Shown here: positions 10,025 to 28,561 of the stretch, one piece after another | How positions within the stretch are numbered: position 1 is the stretch's first letter | Layout: each line of letters starts with the position of its first letter | Source of the DNA: Thioclava atlantica | GTDB lineage: Bacteria; Pseudomonadota; Alphaproteobacteria; Rhodobacterales; Rhodobacteraceae | Assembly (NCBI RefSeq): GCF_000737065.1 | Contig: NZ_AQRC01000004.1 | Location: forward strand, 186,001 to 250,000 | Reading direction: 5' to 3' | DNA length: 64,000 nucleotides | Program-made: the position numbers and the translations under genes | Notes under the pieces: generated by a model | The model's input: the letters and a program-made list of their open reading frames with translations, nothing else | Databases searched by the model: none | Told to the model about the DNA's origin: nothing

Positions 10025-10858
10025 TCAGCGGAACAGGCTCAGGAGGTTCTGAGGACCCTGGTTCGCGATCGAGAGCGACTGCGTCGCGAGCTGCTGCTGG
10101 ACCTGGTAGGACTGAAGCCGCGCGGCCTCTTTCTCCATGTCCGCGTCAACCATGTTGCCGACGCCGGTGTCGAGCTTGTCGGTCAGCTTGCCGAGGAAGT
10201 TCTGCTGGGTTTCCAGCGACTTCTCCGCCACGCCGAGCGAGGTCGCATTGTCGATCGCCGTCGAAAGCTGGTTTTCGGCGGTCGTCATCGCGTTCGACAG
10301 CGCGTTCGCGGAACCGGTGGCGTCGGAGATATCGATCGCACCCAGAGCCGACTTGATCGCCGTCAGGTCCACGGCGTTGAAGGTGATCGAGGTGGTCTGG
10401 AACGACCCGCTCGCGCGGCTGATACCGGTCACGACCGAGACCGAGCCGGTGGTGTTCACCATGTTGTCGCCGTTGAAGGTCGACTGCTGGATCGTGGTCC
10501 CGATCTGGGTCACGATGTTGTTGAGTTCCTTCTGGACCGCATCGTGATCCACGGCAGCGCCCTGGGCGAACGAGACGCGCTCGACGAACTGCTGAGCGAG
10601 ATCCTTCACCGACTCGGCACCAAGACGCGCGGTCGAAACCGAGTTCTTGGTCAGCGTCAGGCCCTCGTTGATCGACTTGTACATCCCGCTGTCGCTGTTC
10701 ATCGATTCCGAGATCGAGAAATAAGCGGCGTTGTCCTTGGCGGAATTGATCTTCTTGCCGGTCGAGATGCGGTTTTGCGTGTCCTCGAGCCCCTTGTTCA
10801 CCGAACGCAGGGTAGCGAGGGCATTCATCGCGGAGGTATTGGTAAGAATGGACGACAT
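10025..10858 (-). CDS. fliC: Flagellin FliC
   Basis: The 277-residue protein has the conserved flagellin D0/D1 ends: MSSILTNTSAMNALATLRSV at the N-terminus and QQLATQSLSIANQGPQNLLSLFR-type C-terminus (last 23 residues). The central region (about 130-190) is short, so this is a compact filament subunit of alphaproteobacterial type. It is monocistronic: a strong terminator follows at 9976-10002. Upstream are a GAGGAGTG Shine-Dalgarno sequence, a TATAGA-like -10 (about 10886-10892, minus strand) and a perfect CtrA box at 10950-10964. It is the only flagellin gene in the window. Confidence 0.97.
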   Translation of the reverse strand: MSSILTNTSAMNALATLRSVNKGLEDTQNRISTGKKINSAKDNAAYFSISESMNSDSGMYKSINEGLTLTKNSVSTARLGAESVKDLAQQFVERVSFAQGAAVDHDAVQKELNNIVTQIGTTIQQSTFNGDNMVNTTGSVSVVTGISRASGSFQTTSITFNAVDLTAIKSALGAIDISDATGSANALSNAMTTAENQLSTAIDNATSLGVAEKSLETQQNFLGKLTDKLDTGVGNMVDADMEKEAARLQSYQVQQQLATQSLSIANQGPQNLLSLFR

Positions 10859-10907
10859 TTCTGGTCACTCCTCATTCTGCAAAGATCTATATTTTCGTCT
10901 TCTGACA

Positions 10908-10926
10908 GAAAAACGGCCTGAGCCGT
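10908..10926 (-). terminator. Small hairpin with T run downstream of flgN-like gene
   Basis: On the minus strand ACGGC-TCAG-GCCGT is followed by five T residues. It lies about 55 bases after the flgN-like stop and upstream of the flagellin promoter, so it may end the flgI-flgJ-flgN unit. The stem is only 5 base pairs. Confidence 0.4.
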
Positions 10927-10949
10927 GAAGAGTGATCTTGGGCCGGAAA

Positions 10950-10964
10950 TTAACGGAAGGTTAA
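10950..10964. promoter_or_regulatory. CtrA box TTAA-N7-TTAA upstream of fliC
   Basis: TTAA at 10950-10953 and TTAA at 10961-10964 with exactly 7 bases between match the full CtrA consensus. It is 92-106 bases upstream of the flagellin ATG. Perfect copies should be rare by chance in such GC-rich DNA. Direct control of flagellin by CtrA is inferred. Confidence 0.6.
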
Positions 10965-13098: not shown

Positions 13099-13851
13099 AT
13101 GCATATTTACGTCTTTGAGCCTCGCGATGGCCGCATTCGCGGCCTGCTCAGCGAGCTGGAGAGCGTGGGGCTGCAACCCGTCATCATCGGCGCGCATTTC
13201 TTCTATTCCGATCTCAGCACGCTGAACCAGAAAGGCGTCGACACGCGGGCAATCCTGATCGGGGACTGCCCAGAGGTTACCGAGCATATCCGCGCCATCC
13301 GCAGCTCAGGCTGTCGCAATCCGGTTCTGGTGATGCGCGACTTCAAGAACTCGCGCGACGCCTCGGAAGCGCTCGATGCCGGTGCCGACGATGTCATGGT
13401 CAGCCCGATCAAGGGGATCGAGGTGCTGTCGCGGATCAATTCGATCATCCGGCGCGCCTACGGCCACGCGGCGGAAAGCATCAGCGTGGGTGAGATCACC
13501 GCCTTCTTCGACGGGCGCGATCCGCTGGTCTCGGGGGCGCGGCTCAAGCTGTCCAACCGCGAACACGCGATCTTCCAGCACCTGGCGCTGAATGCGAACA
13601 AGGTGATCTCGAAGGGGGCGATCTACGACGCGGTCTACGGGATGAGCGACGACCAGCCCTTCGACAAGGTGATCGACGTCTATATCTGCAAGCTGCGCAA
13701 GAAGATCGCCGACGCCTCCCCCAGCGGCCACCAATATATCGAGACGGTCTACGGCCGGGGCTACAAGTTCAGCGAGCTGGAAACGTCCAGCAAGGTGAAA
13801 CTTGCGGCATATGGGAAGGCCGAACCCCTGGGCACGGTGGCCGCGAGATAA
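13099..13851 (+). CDS. FtcR-like atypical OmpR-family flagellar regulator
   Basis: The 250-residue protein has an N-terminal receiver-like domain (about 1-120) and a C-terminal OmpR/PhoB winged helix (about 135-232; LKLSNREHAIFQHLALNANK, IDVYICKLRKKI, ETVYGRGYKF). The receiver pocket is degenerate. The first strand reads YVFEP rather than VDD. The residue aligning with the phosphoacceptor Asp is probably Gly (AILIGDC). The switch Thr is Arg (VLVMRD), and the conserved Lys is Ser (DDVMVSPI). Phosphorylation-independent action is likely. FtcR is the known rhizobial/Brucella flagellar activator of this type. The ATG at 13099 has a GGAGG sequence upstream. It stands alone between flgI and the flgE-K-L unit. 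Confidence 0.75.
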   Translation: MHIYVFEPRDGRIRGLLSELESVGLQPVIIGAHFFYSDLSTLNQKGVDTRAILIGDCPEVTEHIRAIRSSGCRNPVLVMRDFKNSRDASEALDAGADDVMVSPIKGIEVLSRINSIIRRAYGHAAESISVGEITAFFDGRDPLVSGARLKLSNREHAIFQHLALNANKVISKGAIYDAVYGMSDDQPFDKVIDVYICKLRKKIADASPSGHQYIETVYGRGYKFSELETSSKVKLAAYGKAEPLGTVAAR

Positions 13852-16389: not shown

Positions 16390-17688
16390 TCAGCGTTTGA
16401 GACGCGTGGTCTCGTCGAGCATCTCGTCCATGGTGGTGACGATCTTCGCATTCGTGGAATAGGCCCGCTGGGTGCGGATCAGATCGCTCAGCTCCTGCGC
16501 GATATCGACATTGGAGCCCTCGAGCGCGCCCGACGTGATATTGCCCACGGGGCCCTCGTTCGCCTTGTGAATCGTGTAGCTTCCGCTGTTGCGGGTGAGC
16601 CGATAGGCGTCGCCGTCGACTTCCTGCATCCCGTTCGGGTTCTCCACATGGGCGAGCGGGATCTTGTAGAGCGGCTGGCGCTGGCCATTGTCGAAGATTC
16701 CGAACATCGTGCCGCTATTGTCGATCTCGATGCGGGTGAGCGCCCCGGCCGAAGAGCCGTCCGCGCTGAATTTCTGCGGCGTGAAATCGCCCGCGAACTG
16801 GGTGATCCCGTCATAGCTGTTCGGGGCACCGAGCCCGACATCGATCTGTTGCGTGGTGCCGCCGTCATCCACGGTCAGGGTCATCACGCCGGTGGTCGTG
16901 TCCATCGAGAAGGCCGCGGGAGCGGTCGCGAGGCTGGTCACCCCGGAATAGCTCACGGGAGCGCCCGCATTCGCACCGCCGCCGGCGAAATCGACCGTGA
17001 CCGTGCCGTAAGGGGTCCCGTCGGGATCGGCGACGGTGATGTCCCAGCGGTTCGGGGTCGAGGTCGGCTGCCAGGAATATTCGAGGCGCTTCACCGCGCC
17101 CAGCGGGGTGTAATATTGCGACGAGGACTTGAAGGGCGCGCCGGGCGTCGCGTTGCCGGTTTCCTGCGAGGGCAGGTTGCCCTGCACGCCGATCGTGCTG
17201 GTCGCCTTCGCGCTCAGGGTCGCCTCGGTCACGTTCACCGTTTTCAACCCGTTGAAGCTGTTACCGTCGATCGAGCCGAGCTTGCCGTCGGTATAGGGAT
17301 AACCCGAAAGGAAATATCCTGCCGAGTTGACGAGATCGCCATTCTCGTTGGCTTGGAACGATCCGGCGCGCGTCATGACGTAATCGGACTGCACGCTCGT
17401 ATTGGGGGTGTTGGAGACCACGAAGAACCCGTCCCCGTTCACCGCAAGATCGGTCGGAGAGCTGGTGGGGATCACCGCGCCGCCATTCTTCAGATCGGAG
17501 GTGACGACGGCATTGACCCCGGAAGGGGCGTTGAGCCCGCCGCTCGGCGTCATGGTGACCATCTGGGCGAAGCTGCGCTTGTAGCCCGTGGTATTCGCGT
17601 TCGCGATATTCTCGGAAATCTCGCCAACTGCGACAGAATTCGCGTTAAGACCGCTCACGCCGGTCTGCATCGCGCTCGAAATACTCAT
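16390..17688 (-). CDS. flgE: Flagellar hook protein FlgE
   Basis: The 432-residue protein has the hook/rod N-terminus (SSAMQTGVSGLNANSVAVGE, then ENIANANTTGYKRSF), the FlgE central domains (LAVNGDGFFVVS; YPYTDGKLG) and the C-terminal ELSDLIRTQRAYSTNAKIVT. It makes the universal joint and heads flgE-flgK-flgL. An N6-spaced TTAA pair stands about 65 bases upstream. Confidence 0.95.
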   Translation of the reverse strand: MSISSAMQTGVSGLNANSVAVGEISENIANANTTGYKRSFAQMVTMTPSGGLNAPSGVNAVVTSDLKNGGAVIPTSSPTDLAVNGDGFFVVSNTPNTSVQSDYVMTRAGSFQANENGDLVNSAGYFLSGYPYTDGKLGSIDGNSFNGLKTVNVTEATLSAKATSTIGVQGNLPSQETGNATPGAPFKSSSQYYTPLGAVKRLEYSWQPTSTPNRWDITVADPDGTPYGTVTVDFAGGGANAGAPVSYSGVTSLATAPAAFSMDTTTGVMTLTVDDGGTTQQIDVGLGAPNSYDGITQFAGDFTPQKFSADGSSAGALTRIEIDNSGTMFGIFDNGQRQPLYKIPLAHVENPNGMQEVDGDAYRLTRNSGSYTIHKANEGPVGNITSGALEGSNVDIAQELSDLIRTQRAYSTNAKIVTTMDEMLDETTRLKR

Positions 17689-17749: not shown

Positions 17750-17763
17750 TTAACTGACGTTAA
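17750..17763. promoter_or_regulatory. Near-palindromic TTAAC-N4-GTTAA upstream of flgE
   Basis: TTAA half-sites at 17750-17753 and 17760-17763 are separated by 6 bases (one fewer than the CtrA consensus) and lie 62-75 bases upstream of the flgE ATG. The element is palindromic over TTAAC/GTTAA. It may be a variant CtrA site; not proven. Confidence 0.35.
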
Positions 17764-23216: not shown

Positions 23217-23891
23217 TCAGCCCGACACGGCGAGGACGAGCGAGCTCGGAATCTCCTCGCCGTTGCGCAGAACCAGCGACTGCCCCTGCCCCGTGAAGCG
23301 CACCTGATCGACCCGGGTGCTCGGATAGGTGTCGTAGGAAATCGGATTGCCGTCGGCATCCCTTGCGTCGATCTCGATGCGGAACGTGTCATCGGGCACC
23401 GGCAGCCCCGCAGAGTCGCGACCATCCCAGGTGAGCGCGATCTTCTCGCCCGAGCGCGTCGACAGACCGTTGATCCGGCGCAGTTCCGTCCCGTCGGCGG
23501 TCTTGATGATCGCGGTCACCTTGTCGGCAGGGGCGGCGAGTTCGTAGCTCGTGCTTGCCTCCCCGTTGCGCAACTCGAACCTGTCGGAGGCGAGCGTCAC
23601 CGTCTTGCCCATCAGCGCGACATCCGACATCCCCCCCAGCGCGCTCAACTTGGCGTCGATGGTCTTGAGATTGGTGTTGGTCTGGACGGACTGCTCGACC
23701 TGGCTGAGCTGCGCCAATTGCGACACGAACTGCGTCGAGTCCATCGGCTGAAGCGGATCCTGATTTCGGATCTGCGCCGTCAGAAGCTGCAGGAAACTGT
23801 TGTAATCCGCCGAGAGCTTCGATTGCGCGGTATTCGCCGTGTTGTCGGTCGCAGCCGAAGCTGCATTCGTGCTTGTCGGAGAGATGCTCAT
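23217..23891 (-). CDS. flgD: Flagellar hook-cap protein FlgD
   Basis: The 224-residue protein has the FlgD N-terminal motif (DYNSFLQLLTAQIRNQDPLQ, about 28-47, followed by PMDSTQFVSQLAQLSQVEQS) and a C-terminal Ig/FlgD-tudor region with LTWDGRDSAGLPVPDDTFRI. FlgD caps the growing hook and is discarded after completion. The ATG at 23891 with GGAG upstream is chosen over the longer frame. It lies 10 bases downstream of fliK, making it the last gene of sigma factor-sulfotransferase-fliK-flgD. Confidence 0.94.
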   Translation of the reverse strand: MSISPTSTNAASAATDNTANTAQSKLSADYNSFLQLLTAQIRNQDPLQPMDSTQFVSQLAQLSQVEQSVQTNTNLKTIDAKLSALGGMSDVALMGKTVTLASDRFELRNGEASTSYELAAPADKVTAIIKTADGTELRRINGLSTRSGEKIALTWDGRDSAGLPVPDDTFRIEIDARDADGNPISYDTYPSTRVDQVRFTGQGQSLVLRNGEEIPSSLVLAVSG

Positions 23892-23901
23892 TGGTGGCTC
23901 C

Positions 23902-25272
23902 TCAGGTCCTGATATCCACTTGTCCGTCGAGGATGGTCGGCTGCCAGTCGGCGCCAAGCACGGGGACGTCATCCTCGAAATTCGCTCCCGTGCCGGCAGA
24001 GCGCTCTTCCCCCTGCCCGCCATGACCGCCGAACTGCTCGAAATCGAGCGTGCCGCTATCCATCTGGATACCCTGCCCCGCCAGGATATTCGCCAGGGTA
24101 TCGCGATCGCCGCGCAGAGCGCTCAACACCGCCGGGCTCTCGGCGCGCACGACCACGTTGATCTGACCGCGCTTGTCGCGCTCCACGTCGATCTCGATAT
24201 CGCCAAGCCCGCGCGGGGTCAGAGCAACGCGGGTGCGTCCCTCATGCAGGTCGGCGCGCCGCAATTGCGTCGCGAGAAAGGCCGCGAACCGGGGCGAGGG
24301 CTGGGCCGCAGGCTGCCCCGACTGGGCTACTGCTTCGCTGCGCTGCGTGGCGCCTCCGTCATGCTGCGTGAGCCGAGCCACGGCCGTATCGGGCAGCGCC
24401 CCGGCGCGTGCGGCCTCGGCGAACAGGCTGCCGGGTTTGGGATCGCCCTTGCCCGGCTCCACGGGCAGGCCAGCCGCCTGAGCGTCAGACTTGCCGGTTT
24501 TCCCGGCGCCCTTCGTGGCGGCTTCCAGAACCGCGCGCACCCGCGGATCCATGCCATTTTCTCGCAGCTCCGCGGCAGGAAGATTAGGCGCCGGGTCCGC
24601 AGGACCCTGCGGGAGCGGGGTCGCGGCGGGTGCCTGCGCCGCTTCAGGCTTGGGGTGGACAGCAAGAGGAGGCGTTTCCCCGGTCGATCTCGCAGGCAGA
24701 AGCGCCGCAGCCGATTGCACCTCCGCGCCCCCCTTTTGGAGCGGCACGCGTTCAGGCGCCATCCCCGGCAGGCCGAGCGACATCAGAAGGCTCGCAAAGA
24801 CCTCGTCTATGCTTTCGCTTGCCCCGCCGGGCTTGCCCGAAGCCGGTTTTTCCACCGTGCTTCCGGCCTGCGGGCTGATCCCATTCAGCGAACGGACCAG
24901 AACCTCCCGAAGCTTCGTGCCATGTGCGGCATCGAACCCGGCGAGCACCTTCGCGAGCGACGCGCCCAGCTCGCTCAACACGGCCCCTACGGGCTTGCCA
25001 TTTGCCAACTCCGCAAGCGCTCCGTCCCGAACCTTCTGAAGCTTTCCGACCAGCTCGGTCTGAAGCGCGGGAATGTCCGCAAGGAGCGTGGCCCCTGCCG
25101 CACCGCCCGCCGAAACCGCCAGCACGGCGCCCCCTTTTCCCTGCGCAAGCGAACTCGTTTGCGCCCCCTGCAGGAGCGTCCCGAACCCGGTCTGCTCCGA
25201 TCCCGCAGGCTTTCGCCCCGCTCCCGAGATCGGCGTCGTCGTATTCAGCAATGTCGCAGCTTTCGCGTCCAT
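23902..25272 (-). CDS. fliK: Hook-length control protein FliK
   Basis: The 456-residue protein is low-complexity, Ala/Gly/Pro-rich over most of its length (the molecular ruler region) and ends with a Flg_hook C-terminal domain (about 345-420): TRVALTPRGLGDIEIDVERD, then INVVVRAESPAVLSALRGDR and LAGQGIQMDSGTLDF. FliK is secreted and triggers the FlhB specificity switch; FlhB is encoded at the left edge. The ATG at 25272 is 13 bases after the sulfotransferase stop. The upstream in-frame extension reads as a shadow of the sulfotransferase gene. Confidence 0.9.
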   Translation of the reverse strand: MDAKAATLLNTTTPISGAGRKPAGSEQTGFGTLLQGAQTSSLAQGKGGAVLAVSAGGAAGATLLADIPALQTELVGKLQKVRDGALAELANGKPVGAVLSELGASLAKVLAGFDAAHGTKLREVLVRSLNGISPQAGSTVEKPASGKPGGASESIDEVFASLLMSLGLPGMAPERVPLQKGGAEVQSAAALLPARSTGETPPLAVHPKPEAAQAPAATPLPQGPADPAPNLPAAELRENGMDPRVRAVLEAATKGAGKTGKSDAQAAGLPVEPGKGDPKPGSLFAEAARAGALPDTAVARLTQHDGGATQRSEAVAQSGQPAAQPSPRFAAFLATQLRRADLHEGRTRVALTPRGLGDIEIDVERDKRGQINVVVRAESPAVLSALRGDRDTLANILAGQGIQMDSGTLDFEQFGGHGGQGEERSAGTGANFEDDVPVLGADWQPTILDGQVDIRT

Positions 25273-25285
25273 GTATTTGACCTCG

Positions 25286-26065
25286 TCACCCAAACCGCAC
25301 CCTAACGCCCCGGCGGTCCGAGAAGGCCGCCTGCCACTCCATGAACGGAGCATACCACTCCCGGTCCTTTTCATACCCAAGCTGCACGAGCAGATCGAAC
25401 AGCACCGGAAAGCGCGAGAACTGATCGAAAATGCGCGCCCGGTGCTCTTCGCCGCGCCATTTCGCGCGCGCCTTCTCGACCGGCCGCACGCCGTTGAGAG
25501 GCCCCTGCAAGGCGCTCGGAACTTTCGTCGAGCCATAGTCGGAGAAGCTCCCCTCGAATTGCAGATCGAACGCATCACCCAGCTTCGTCTGAATTCTGTC
25601 GGGGTCATTGACCAGATCTTCGTATTTGAGAAGGAAGACCCCCTGGGGGAAGATGCCGGAATTCAGCACGGTCCCGATTGCCTCATGGATCTGCAACAGT
25701 CCCGGCATGATCGGCGCGGGCGCGTCGTCGCCGTCAATGAAATACATCCGATCCGCCGAAATGAAGTAGTCATCCGGCACCGCGGAGTGACGGCTCACGA
25801 GGATGTCGCGCGGGTCGCGCAGCGGCACGATCAGATCGAGCCGCTTCTCGCGACGGTTCGCGCGCGCAACATTCGGAACCTGGAAGATATCGAGCGGGCG
25901 CTTGCTCACCCAATTTCCCGGTCGCGCAATCGTCGCTAGTGCGCTCGTCTCACGGGGCGGTATTTCAAACCCTTTCAGGGTCTCGCGCAGCATATTGTAG
26001 AAAAGCGTCGTTCCCGCGCGCCCGTATCCTGCGATCATGAGGTGACGTGACATGGTCCCGCTCAT
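25286..26065 (-). CDS. Sulfotransferase-family protein in the fliK-flgD operon
   Basis: The 259-residue protein has a PAPS-binding 5'-PSB loop near the N-terminus (GYGRAGTTLFYNMLRETL, about 13-30) and a 3'-PB element RDPRDILVSRHSAV (about 84-97), the two hallmarks of PAPS-dependent sulfotransferases. There is no signal peptide, so it acts in the cytoplasm. Its ATG shares one base with the sigma-factor stop and fliK follows after 13 bases, so it is co-expressed with hook-assembly genes. The acceptor is unknown; flagellin, its glycan or a surface polysaccharide are candidates by inference. A TTG at 26068 is an alternative start. Confidence 0.8.
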   Translation of the reverse strand: MSGTMSRHLMIAGYGRAGTTLFYNMLRETLKGFEIPPRETSALATIARPGNWVSKRPLDIFQVPNVARANRREKRLDLIVPLRDPRDILVSRHSAVPDDYFISADRMYFIDGDDAPAPIMPGLLQIHEAIGTVLNSGIFPQGVFLLKYEDLVNDPDRIQTKLGDAFDLQFEGSFSDYGSTKVPSALQGPLNGVRPVEKARAKWRGEEHRARIFDQFSRFPVLFDLLVQLGYEKDREWYAPFMEWQAAFSDRRGVRVRFG

Positions 26066-26808
26066 CAATTCAGCATCGCGGGGCTGAATCCGCGCTTTTC
26101 GAGATGGCGCTTGAGCCGGGTGAGCGCGCGTTTTTCGACCTGGCGGGCACGCTCCCGGCTCATCTCGAGATCGCGGGCGAGATCGTCGATTGAATCGGGG
26201 GGCGTCTGCAACTTGCGCCGCAGAACGATCTCGCGATCCGGTTCTTCGAGATCGTCCAGCGCATCCCCGAGAACCTCACGCGCCATCCGCGCGGCAGAGG
26301 CGGCGAGGGTCTGCTCCTCGGGCGTGAGATCCGGGCTGCGCATCATCTCCATCATCTCGGCATCGCTGTCGTCGAAAGCCCGGGCATCAAGGGCGACCAC
26401 TCCGGTGAGGACCTGACCGGCCTCGGGATTGTCGAGCCGCCCCATGCGGGCATCGAGATAGACACGGGTCGGCACGTCGATCACCGTCTTGATCCGGGCG
26501 AGCGCGTTGAGCACGCAGGTCATCACCCACCAATGCGAATAGGTCGAAAACCGGACATCCTGCGTGAGATCGAATTTCTCGGCGGCGCGCATCAGGCCGA
26601 TGATCCCCTCGGCCACCAGATCCTCGAGCTCGACCGGGTTGGTCGCCCAGCGACGGGCCTGGGCATATGCCTGACGGACGTGAGAGCGGAGAAGAATCTC
26701 GAGCGAGTCCCGGTCTCCATGTTCCTGCCACCGCGAGATGGCTTGCCGTTCTTCCTCGACATCAAGAAATGGCGCATCAAGTGCAGCACGGAAACTCAAT
26801 GCAAACAT
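26065..26808 (-). CDS. Sigma-70 family factor, RpoH-like, in the flagellar cluster
   Basis: The 247-residue protein has sigma regions 2 and 4: core-binding/-10 recognition with VELEDLVAEGIIGLMRAAEK and RFSTYSHWWVMTCV (about 60-100), and region 4.2 helix-turn-helix with SIDDLARDLEMSRERARQVE (about 210-229). Overall order and length fit the sigma-32 group, but the RpoH box (QRKLFFNLR-like) after region 2.4 is not recognisable. The chosen ATG at 26808 has a GAGGCGGG sequence upstream; a GTG at 26826 is possible. It heads the operon with the sulfotransferase, fliK and flgD, and two perfect CtrA boxes lie upstream. It may replace FliA as a flagellar sigma factor; that is inference. Confidence 0.8.
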   Translation of the reverse strand: MFALSFRAALDAPFLDVEEERQAISRWQEHGDRDSLEILLRSHVRQAYAQARRWATNPVELEDLVAEGIIGLMRAAEKFDLTQDVRFSTYSHWWVMTCVLNALARIKTVIDVPTRVYLDARMGRLDNPEAGQVLTGVVALDARAFDDSDAEMMEMMRSPDLTPEEQTLAASAARMAREVLGDALDDLEEPDREIVLRRKLQTPPDSIDDLARDLEMSRERARQVEKRALTRLKRHLEKRGFSPAMLN

Positions 26809-26882
26809 TAGCCCGCCTCTATCCACTCTTTTATCAAAGAACAGAAGATCATGGGCAAAGCTTTGGAGGAAGCTTTACTTGA

Positions 26883-26897
26883 TTAAAGGGACATTAA
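26883..26897. promoter_or_regulatory. CtrA box 1 upstream of the sigma-factor operon
   Basis: TTAA (26883-26886), 7 bases, TTAA (26894-26897): a perfect full CtrA consensus, 75-89 bases upstream of the sigma-factor ATG. It is the promoter-proximal member of a pair. Confidence 0.65.
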
Positions 26898-26913
26898 TCC
26901 GCAGGTTTTCTGG

Positions 26914-26928
26914 TTAATCTTGGGTTAA
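26914..26928. promoter_or_regulatory. CtrA box 2 upstream of the sigma-factor operon
   Basis: TTAA (26914-26917), 7 bases, TTAA (26925-26928): a second perfect CtrA consensus. It starts exactly 31 bases from box 1, close to three helical turns, so two CtrA dimers could bind on the same DNA face. Confidence 0.65.
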
Positions 26929-27052: not shown

Positions 27053-27466
27053 TCAGAGGCGACCGCTCACAGCGGCACCACCACGATCCCGGCCATCCTC
27101 ATGGACAGCAAAGCCATCGCGCCCACGCGACGCCATCGCCGGCAGCCGGAGGTCCATCGCACGGTCCCCGTTTCCGTGCTTCGCCTCCGCTCCATGTGCG
27201 GGCTCGATGACGATGAGGCTTCCATAGGGAACCTCGATCCCGAGCTCCTCCACGAGAACATCGCCGAGCGAAATCCCGGGCAGAAGCTCTTCCGCCTCGG
27301 GCAGCACCAGAAAGCGGGCATCTTCCCGCGTCGAGCAGAGCACCACCGTCTGCGCAGGCAGAAGCGCAGCCGCCAGCCAGCGCCCTTGGGAGCCCGAACC
27401 ACTTGACGTGCACGTCACGGAACCTTCCCAAATCTGCGCCAACAAATCGTTGTTTTTCATAGACAT
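27053..27466 (-). CDS. Hypothetical small protein next to the sigma-factor operon
   Basis: The open frame from ATG 27466 encodes 137 residues. The first 90 or so look like a genuine soluble protein (NNDLLAQIWEGSVTCTSSGS at the start; then RFLVLPEAEELLPGISLGDV and PYGSLIVIEPA). The last 40 residues are rich in Arg/Gly/Asp and read less convincingly, so the 3' end may be frameshifted or the gene may be shorter. I recognise no family. It is 244 bases upstream of the sigma-factor gene on the same strand and downstream of the degenerate response-regulator gene, so a role in flagellar regulation is possible but unsupported by motifs. Confidence 0.45.
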   Translation of the reverse strand: MSMKNNDLLAQIWEGSVTCTSSGSGSQGRWLAAALLPAQTVVLCSTREDARFLVLPEAEELLPGISLGDVLVEELGIEVPYGSLIVIEPAHGAEAKHGNGDRAMDLRLPAMASRGRDGFAVHEDGRDRGGAAVSGRL

Positions 27467-27811
27467 CCTAGACCCCTGAGTCCCCCTCATTTGCAGCAGC
27501 GACAGATTATCAGCGATTCACCGTCGGGTAAGGTTGAGGATTGTTAAACCGCAAGGCGAGTGAGTCCGGATCGCGCCGGGACGCGCCTTGCGACAGAACC
27601 GCCGGACCAGCGCCTCATCGGCGGCGATCGATGCTCCGAGACACCTATTTTTCAGCGCTTGGCGCCCTAATGGTTGTGTGCACGCCTCTGGCTTCCCACA
27701 GCTTATTGACGCAACGTCCACAATTTGTGGTCTCAAGATCAATCAAGGTGTTGTTAACAATTCGATGCTTGACAGCCGCACCCGCAAAACCTGTTACACA
27801 GACTCGGCGTA
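27467..27811. other. 345-base intergenic stretch between response-regulator gene and orphan gene
   Basis: No convincing gene is seen. The stretch contains a 10-base palindrome TTGTTAACAA (27751-27760), an imperfect dyad CCACAATTTGTGG (27718-27730), and a TTAA half-site near 27544. These AT-rich elements probably belong to the promoter of the orphan gene at 27053-27466, which is read leftwards. Confidence 0.4.
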
Positions 27812-28561
27812 TCAACCCTGGGTTGCAAGCGCCTGTCGTTTTCCCGCGGGAATCTCGTAGAAGGAATACCCGGCGGCGCGCACCGTTTCGACCACGTACC
27901 TCTCGCCGAAGGCATCGCGCAGTTTCTTGCGGATCTTCGTGATATGAACGTCGAATTTCCGGTCCCCATAGACCCACAGGCATTTGTCGATCCGGCGGGA
28001 AAGCGCGTCGCGTGTGACGATGCGTCCACCGCTCCGGATGAGTTCGCGCATGATCTCCGCTTCCATCGGCGTGAGCTGCACAGCCTCCGCCGCATCGGGC
28101 ACGGTGAGCCGATTATCCTTGTCGATCCTGAGGCGGGCGACGCGTTTCTCCTCGCCCGGCAGGTTCAGGGGCAGACCATCCCCCGCCCGGAGCCAGAGCC
28201 GCGCCGCCAGCTCCCTCTCGGTATAGGGCTCTCGGATCACGTCATCGGCGCCCGCCAGGATCATCTCGGCGGCAAGATCCCCGCCCGGAGAGGGCTCGAT
28301 GAAAATGACAAGGCTCTCCATCGGGCCGACGCGTGCGGTGCGTATCAGATCCGCCGCACCGTCCGGCTGCGCAAGGCTGATCAGCACGACCCGTGGATTG
28401 CCGCCCGACAGGAGGTGTTGTTCGGCCTCTCGCGCGCACGCGAAGGGCAAGGCCTCCCAGCCGCAATACTCGAGAAAGAAGCGGGCCAACTGCTGTTGCT
28501 TCGCCTCTTCTTCCGCGACGATGATGACGTTCTGTCTCCGCGTGGCATCCATGCCGGACAA
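27812..28561 (-). CDS. OmpR-family regulator with degenerate receiver domain
   Basis: The 249-residue protein has a receiver-like domain (about 8-125) and a normal OmpR/PhoB winged helix (about 155-240: LTPMEAEIMRELIRSGGRIV, FDVHITKIRKKLRD, VETVRAAGYSFYEI). The phosphoacceptor Asp is replaced by Ser (RVVLISLAQP), the switch Ser/Thr by Glu (LVIFIEPS) and the conserved Lys by Glu (DDVIREPY), so phosphorylation is very unlikely. The TTG at 28561 is favoured because GGGAG stands 7 bases upstream; an ATG at 28552 lacks a Shine-Dalgarno sequence. The gene is divergent from the mucR-like pair and convergent with none; no histidine kinase is nearby. CtrA-, FtcR- or other regulator family membership cannot be fixed without alignment. 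Confidence 0.8.
   Translation of the reverse strand: MSGMDATRRQNVIIVAEEEAKQQQLARFFLEYCGWEALPFACAREAEQHLLSGGNPRVVLISLAQPDGAADLIRTARVGPMESLVIFIEPSPGGDLAAEMILAGADDVIREPYTERELAARLWLRAGDGLPLNLPGEEKRVARLRIDKDNRLTVPDAAEAVQLTPMEAEIMRELIRSGGRIVTRDALSRRIDKCLWVYGDRKFDVHITKIRKKLRDAFGERYVVETVRAAGYSFYEIPAGKRQALATQG

Follow-up and report, generated by a model that had tools for sequence, protein, structure and literature searches.

The CtrA-dependent promoters of Cereibacter (Rhodobacter) sphaeroides, as described in the relevant passages of PMC6180460, lie upstream of flagellar operons behind a CtrA-type site; transcription starts 23 or 24 nt past the box, an A at -11 is invariant, and activity is strongly reduced without ctrA or when the box or the -10 element is altered. 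Flagellar clusters of the fla2 type, for which Marinovum algicola DG898 is the source of the reference, are stated in passages of PMC12363192 to spread horizontally and to be plasmid-borne in almost half of cases. Passages of PMC12843797 name the plasmid pMaD5 and list rpoD and cheY genes in the Marinovum fla2 cluster, while PMC13386836 names sigma-28, in the part concerned, on flagellar plasmids of Sulfitobacter and assigns the only flagellar cluster of Sulfitobacter pontiacus to a plasmid. What PMC6180460 calls fla2 in C. sphaeroides seems to correspond to the fla1 type under the nomenclature of PMC12363192, where the passage concerned is worded ambiguously. In the passages of the open-access literature surveyed, including PMC12363192, PMC12843797, and PMC13386836, no CtrA-type promoter of fla2-type clusters is described. 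Here we analyze a 64,000-nucleotide stretch of the Thioclava atlantica genome (contig NZ_AQRC01000004.1; "the window"), in which two copies of the CtrA-type box TTAA-N7-TTAA stand before an operon encoding a sigma factor and the hook proteins FliK and FlgD. Sequence comparison identifies one of these boxes as part of a CtrA-type switch conserved among fla2 flagella. The surveyed passages do not describe its geometry for CtrA, and there are two candidate readers: CtrA itself and a look-alike response regulator encoded in the cluster (RR1).

RESULTS

The two boxes, TTAAAGGGACATTAA at 26883-26897 and TTAATCTTGGGTTAA at 26914-26928, start 31 bp apart, exactly where the initial annotation had placed them; since the pattern is palindromic, a single box gives no direction. 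They precede four genes on the minus strand (Table 1), whose order of sigma factor, sulfotransferase, fliK, and flgD had also been read correctly. The start of the sigma gene was taken as the ATG at 26808, the GTG at 26826 being absent from relatives.

A profile of nine sigma proteins, searched in 394 genomes of the family, recovered full-length orthologs in 14 genomes (that of the window included), separated from the next matches by a wide gap (2.6e-74 versus 2.0e-36). These 14 genomes, one per genus, and 7 annotated plasmid loci provided 21 upstream regions; the plasmid records name 5 genera, which may overlap with these 14, so that 14 to 19 genera are represented. A site with at most one mismatch was present in all 21 regions and was exact in 9, compared with 1.35 regions on average, and at most 5, in dinucleotide shuffles of the same sequences and with 245 of 9,500 random 200-bp windows drawn from 19 fla2 loci. 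The box stands 77 to 94 bp from the start codon, and it is the proximal box that occupies this distance in Thioclava. No site was found at the distance matching the distal box in the 20 other upstream regions; two of them (L090 and L094) have a second one-mismatch site, which overlaps the first. Both boxes and their 31-bp spacing are present in 6/6 Thioclava clusters (the genome of the window and all 5 relatives carrying the cluster). By this comparison the proximal box is ancestral, with the distal box seen in Thioclava alone. The initial annotation had taken two adjacent exact sites as the mark of a real CtrA promoter and had proposed a comparison with related genera; that comparison bears out the proximal site and confines the distal one to Thioclava.

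The conservation extends beyond the box. We aligned 23 promoters, of which 22 entered the column counts (L016 dropped) and 21 the site counts (with L020 left out as well, to count Thioclava once). Counted from the end of the proximal box, CA at +2/+3 occurs in 20 and 19 of 22 promoters and is followed by an A/T tract; CTT follows at +11 to +13 (C in 21/22, T in 22/22, and T in 21/22), then TG at +32/+33 (20/22 and 18/22), T at +35 (18/22), and T at +40 (20/22). Because the aligner rewarded CA and CTT, these columns and those of the box owe part of their uniformity to the procedure; this does not apply to the TG and T columns, the 21/21 site count, or the narrow range of distances to the start codon. 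One promoter (L109) reads better with a 6-bp spacer. Hairpin-like repeats, TTCTTG...CAAGAA or similar, were also noted some 15 to 35 bp before the start codon in the sigma leaders of Salipiger, Alloyangia, and Marinovum (L088 to L091).

A composite pattern of box, CA, CTT, and TG, searched in the 394 whole genomes, gave 11 matches: 9 at sigma-gene promoters, 1 at a fliK promoter (G177), and 1 elsewhere (G159). The reversed pattern gave a single match. Because the pattern was built from these promoters, its matches to them are not independent, and its rarity elsewhere is what counts; G177 was absent from the promoters used to build it. That genome has no detectable sigma gene, and its promoter block stands immediately before fliK-flgD, at about 22.5 kb in the joined L141/L142 stretch. 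This genome weakens the idea that the private sigma factor itself recognizes the block. The two other genomes with RR1 in which no sigma gene was detected are uninformative, as the contig of G178 ends inside fliK and the fliK frame of G339 reaches the contig end.

The frequency of the bare motif is unremarkable. The whole genome (3.93 Mb) contains 8 exact copies, compared with about 3.8 predicted from the base composition of the window and 20 for a reversed control pattern; across 16 Thioclava genomes, counts range from 6 to 29 for the motif and from 11 to 66 for the control. TTAA-N7-TTAA is thus not enriched genome-wide, and the count by itself, which the initial annotation had suggested as a measure of chance, is no evidence and was rejected as proof of function. 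Clustering in the window is evidence: the window is 1.6% of the genome yet holds 3 of the 8 copies (P about 2e-4), as against 0.02 copies expected from shuffles. The third of these, at 10950-10964, precedes a flagellin gene, and the pair before the sigma gene is the only tandem pair in the genome. In four relatives (G006, G007, G010, and G015; 40 kb of the region each), the same three boxes are the sole exact copies.

Other exact boxes in the same genome were noted at 1501-1515 of the respective stretches. One lies 88 bp before an RpoH-like gene (490-1413 of L008), and another lies about 50 bp before the gene of a PAS-type sensor kinase, which we take to be possibly divL, adjoining a RegB-like kinase (L006). 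A third, TTAAGTCAGTCTTAA, is located just before another response regulator gene (L007) and recurs with identical 15 bases in G015 and G002; it may be autoregulatory for that regulator rather than a CtrA site.

The cluster in the window is of the fla2 type and, as judged by gene order and protein matches rather than by a tree, stands beside another flagellar set elsewhere in the genome; the flagellar genes, assigned to no type in the initial annotation, are thus a second set. A FlgI search found the window type in 6/16 Thioclava genomes and a distant flgI (51 to 55%) in 16/16, and the sigma gene is present in the same 6 genomes. Its best named relatives are those of Thioclava sediminum and Thioclava sp. 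JE_KL1 (91 to 92% identity). Related clusters are found on plasmids of Salipiger, Alloyangia, Marinovum (pMaD5 itself, our locus L091), Roseivivax, and Sulfitobacter. Protein matches and gene order ally the window's cluster with that of Marinovum pMaD5 and set it apart from the resident set; the cluster of pMaD5 and its relatives share with it the gene order, the sigma gene before fliK, and RR1. The 60 kb around the other flgI, a region in which part of the resident flagellar genes was located, contain a few one-mismatch sites and a single exact one, which precedes a sensor kinase gene. For the sigma relatives of Methyloligella and Methylorubrum, no flagellar genes were recognized by eye in the listed stretches, L011, L012, and L014 aside.

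The first gene of the operon encodes a member of the sigma-70 family that shares regions 2 and 4 with RpoH and FliA and scores beneath the curated cutoffs of both. The best model for the window's protein is sigma-32, at 133.9 bits against a cutoff of 315, while the FliA (sigma-28) model gives 49.4 bits against 189.6; assignment to either is unsupported, and the earlier label of a sigma-32-like factor is not sustained by the curated model. If the sigma-28 gene named in the cited passage of PMC13386836 is the same gene, that label would be unsuited to the window's protein by the curated model. The sulfotransferase, counted as an operon member in the initial annotation, is not a regular one: the gene is present in 4/5 Thioclava relatives, G015 retains a 51-residue match, and searches of other genera (12 genome stretches and 7 plasmid loci) gave no match. 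Upstream of the operon, 27053-27490 encodes a small protein with no Pfam or NCBIfam match, a relative of which (37%) is also encoded upstream of the operon in G177.

Sites of the same kind precede other fla2 genes. An exact box is present in 13/18 upstream regions of fla2 flagellin genes, with an A at +12 or +13 in 13/13. Upstream of flgE, 14/20 regions have a site (one mismatch with a 7-bp spacer, or exact with 6 bp), of which 1 is exact with a 7-bp spacer, and the A is present in 11. Sites occur upstream of RR1 in 7/19 regions and, for comparison, upstream of flgF in 0/20 and flgI in 3/19. Ahead of the start codon, several fla2 flagellin leaders, including that of the window (10859-10949), also share short repeats of hairpin-like form around CAGAA, which may be an FlbT target.

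Two regulators come into consideration as readers of the boxes. A canonical CtrA is encoded in the genome of the window (436 bits against a cutoff of 350; established for this genome only). RR1 was found in 19/20 fla2 stretches, the 20th being cut short, and in 17 of the 394 family genomes, including all 14 with a sigma ortholog; no sigma gene was detected in the other three (G177, G178, and G339), and 2 of the 17 matches (G359 and G419) contain a stop codon inside the matched stretch. The NCBIfam CtrA model matches 8/8 RR1 proteins and is the best model for that of the window, at 121.6 bits against the cutoff of 350. Alignment of the 8 RR1 proteins shows L, I, or M at the position of the CtrA phospho-acceptor D51 in every one of them, together with changes in the acidic pair and a replacement of the receiver lysine (KP). 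The recognition helix, IDVYICKLRKKI or close to it, is nearly the same as IDVFICKLRKKL in CtrA. By the curated cutoff and the phospho-acceptor column RR1 is not classed as CtrA, yet it may act like CtrA on DNA; RR1 would seem to have lost phosphorylation, a reading qualified by an Asp close to the phospho-site column in the RR1 proteins of the window and of Roseivivax. A further regulator of the OmpR/PhoB type (RR2), encoded upstream of the operon, scores 67 bits with PhoB and 37 bits with CtrA.

Table 1. Positions in the window of the boxes, promoter elements, and genes discussed in the text
Feature	Position	Strand	Remarks
Proximal CtrA-type box	26883..26897	-	Sense strand TTAATGTCCCTTTAA; 89 bp upstream of sigma ATG; the ancestral fla2 site
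Distal CtrA-type box	26914..26928	-	Sense strand TTAACCCAAGATTAA; 31 bp beyond proximal box; Thioclava only among regions compared
Conserved core-promoter block	26843..26882	-	CA, A/T tract, CTT, TG, T's; positions counted from proximal box end
Candidate -35-like element	26871-26866	-	Predicted from block
Candidate extended -10-like element	26848-26843	-	Predicted from block
fla2-linked sigma-70 family factor (regions 2 and 4)	26065..26808	-	First operon gene
Sulfotransferase-like gene	25286..26053	-	Between sigma gene and fliK; below Pfam cutoff; Thioclava only among those compared
fliK, hook-length control	23902..25272	-	Pfam Flg_hook 9.3e-11; start set after relatives
flgD, hook cap	23217..23891	-	Pfam FlgD 4.7e-22; start set after relatives
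CtrA-type box before fla2 flagellin	10950..10964	-	Has the +12 A of CtrA promoters in C. sphaeroides
fla2 flagellin	10025..10858	-	Pfam Flagellin_N/C
CtrA-like box with 6-bp spacer	17750..17763	-	Before flgE (16390-17688)
RR1, CtrA-like response regulator with degenerate receiver	13099..13851	+	Candidate rival or partner reader of boxes
RR2, OmpR/PhoB-type regulator	27812..28561	-	Upstream of operon; Pfam: DNA-binding domain alone

DISCUSSION

Our results suggest that the fla2 flagellum is probably run via host CtrA or via the cluster's own look-alike regulator. We favor, with about even confidence, the interpretation that a CtrA-family regulator activates the sigma-fliK-flgD promoter from the proximal box, the likeliest candidate being the host's phosphorylated CtrA (CtrA~P). 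Our preference for host CtrA over RR1 rests on its proven recognition of such boxes and its control of flagella in Rhodobacterales, as set out in passages of PMC6180460 and PMC12363192. In the proposed mechanism, CtrA would occupy the DNA immediately before a weak -35-like CTT that starts 11 bp past the box and would help RNA polymerase at an extended -10-like TG-n-TTAnnT; with 17 bp between the two elements, the box would be placed just upstream of the polymerase site. Transcription is predicted to start about 45 to 50 bp downstream of the box, whose center would then be near -54. Hook-length control, the hook cap, and the private sigma factor would thereby share a regulator with the chromosomal flagellum of Rhodobacterales, the fla2 flagellin and flgE would be directly controlled by the same kind of box, and the distal box of Thioclava, three helical turns upstream, might strengthen binding on the same DNA face.

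The geometry of this promoter differs from that of the CtrA promoters mapped in C. sphaeroides, as given in the passages of PMC6180460, a difference that was missed in the initial annotation. A start 23 or 24 nt past the box puts the -11 A of C. sphaeroides at +12/+13 here. An A at the would-be -11 is present in the fla2-type flagellin promoters and in part of the flgE promoters, whereas in the sigma-operon promoter this A is missing from +12/+13 and the CTT and TG/TTA elements are spaced differently; a C. sphaeroides-type start was accordingly rejected for it.

Several observations weigh against activation by CtrA. The A that goes with the 23-24 nt distance of CtrA promoters is missing from the sigma promoter, RR1 could be the reader, and no site was found upstream of 5/18 flagellin and 6/20 flgE genes. 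The composite pattern fits 16/23 aligned promoters and misses 5 of the 14 sigma-bearing genomes (G176, G349, G351, G359, and G419), and the second half-site is TAAA rather than TTAA in 11/22 promoters. One-mismatch sites are carried by 559 of 1,936 AT-rich 200-bp windows of fla2 loci, windows that overlap one another and include the promoters themselves. Such sites are also found with a 6-bp spacer in 17/21 upstream regions, largely from the same TTTAA...TTAA letters, and with spacers of 4, 5, or 8 bp in 7 to 8 of 21. The sequences moreover share ancestry, so that the counts are not independent.

Of the other explanations, the one we take most seriously, while still doubting it, is that the boxes are read mainly by RR1, acting as a cluster-borne, phosphorylation-independent, CtrA-like activator outside the CckA-ChpT relay or in competition with CtrA. 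RR1 accompanies the sigma ortholog in 14/14 genomes, the changes in its receiver go together with a recognition helix near that of CtrA, and CtrA is its best model, though far under the cutoff. The box, however, suits the host CtrA present in the genome of the window, so that RR1 is not required, and the nearby Asp, the three genomes with RR1 and no detected sigma gene, and the stop codons in two matches do not fit easily with such a role. The initial annotation had placed the operon under CtrA; a CtrA-type box does precede sigma-fliK-flgD, while the attribution to CtrA itself is loosened by this look-alike in the same cluster.

The proximal box might also be a repression operator, overlapping a -35-like TTTAAC together with its spacer and followed by a TATTCT-like -10 at +7 to +12, through which CtrA or RR1 would silence the operon. 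The conserved C at +11 and T at +12 could end such a -10, and the missing A of CtrA-activated promoters would fit; we nevertheless consider repression unlikely, as it leaves the conserved TG (+32/+33) and T (+40) without a role, and CtrA appears chiefly as an activator in the P. inhibens ctrA mutants of the passages in PMC12363192. That another OmpR-type regulator reads the boxes, for example, RR2, seems very improbable: RR2 is encoded upstream of the operon in Thioclava, and winged-helix, helix-turn-helix, or response-regulator genes are annotated nearby in four plasmid clusters, but RR2 is closer to PhoB than to CtrA, and in Roseivivax and two Sulfitobacter loci the box is present with no OmpR-type gene annotated beside the operon, in an annotation that is incomplete. 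The boxes are least credible as AT-rich coincidences. The motif's lack of genome-wide enrichment would permit this, but a near-fixed position in 21/21 orthologs, the concentration of genomic sites in the cluster, and the rarity of the composite block led us to reject a chance origin.

The coordination of two flagellar clusters in one cell is an open question according to the passages of Tomasch et al. 2025 (PMC12363192). The conserved promoter described here offers a direct handle on it: three small promoters (sigma-fliK-flgD, flgE, and flagellin), one kind of box, and two candidate readers. A horizontally spread flagellar cluster has retained this promoter from genus to genus, in Thioclava as well as on named plasmids, which implies that its regulator either waits in each host, as CtrA would, or travels with the cluster, as RR1 would. 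It is conceivable, although we advance the idea only tentatively, that fla2 clusters are mobile flagella equipped with a sigma factor of their own and with a private, phosphorylation-independent CtrA DNA-reading head (RR1), wired to CtrA-type boxes on late genes, and that on entering a new genus they plug into or bypass the cell-cycle and quorum circuit of the host CtrA. If so, this connection or bypass would decide which of two flagella gets built.
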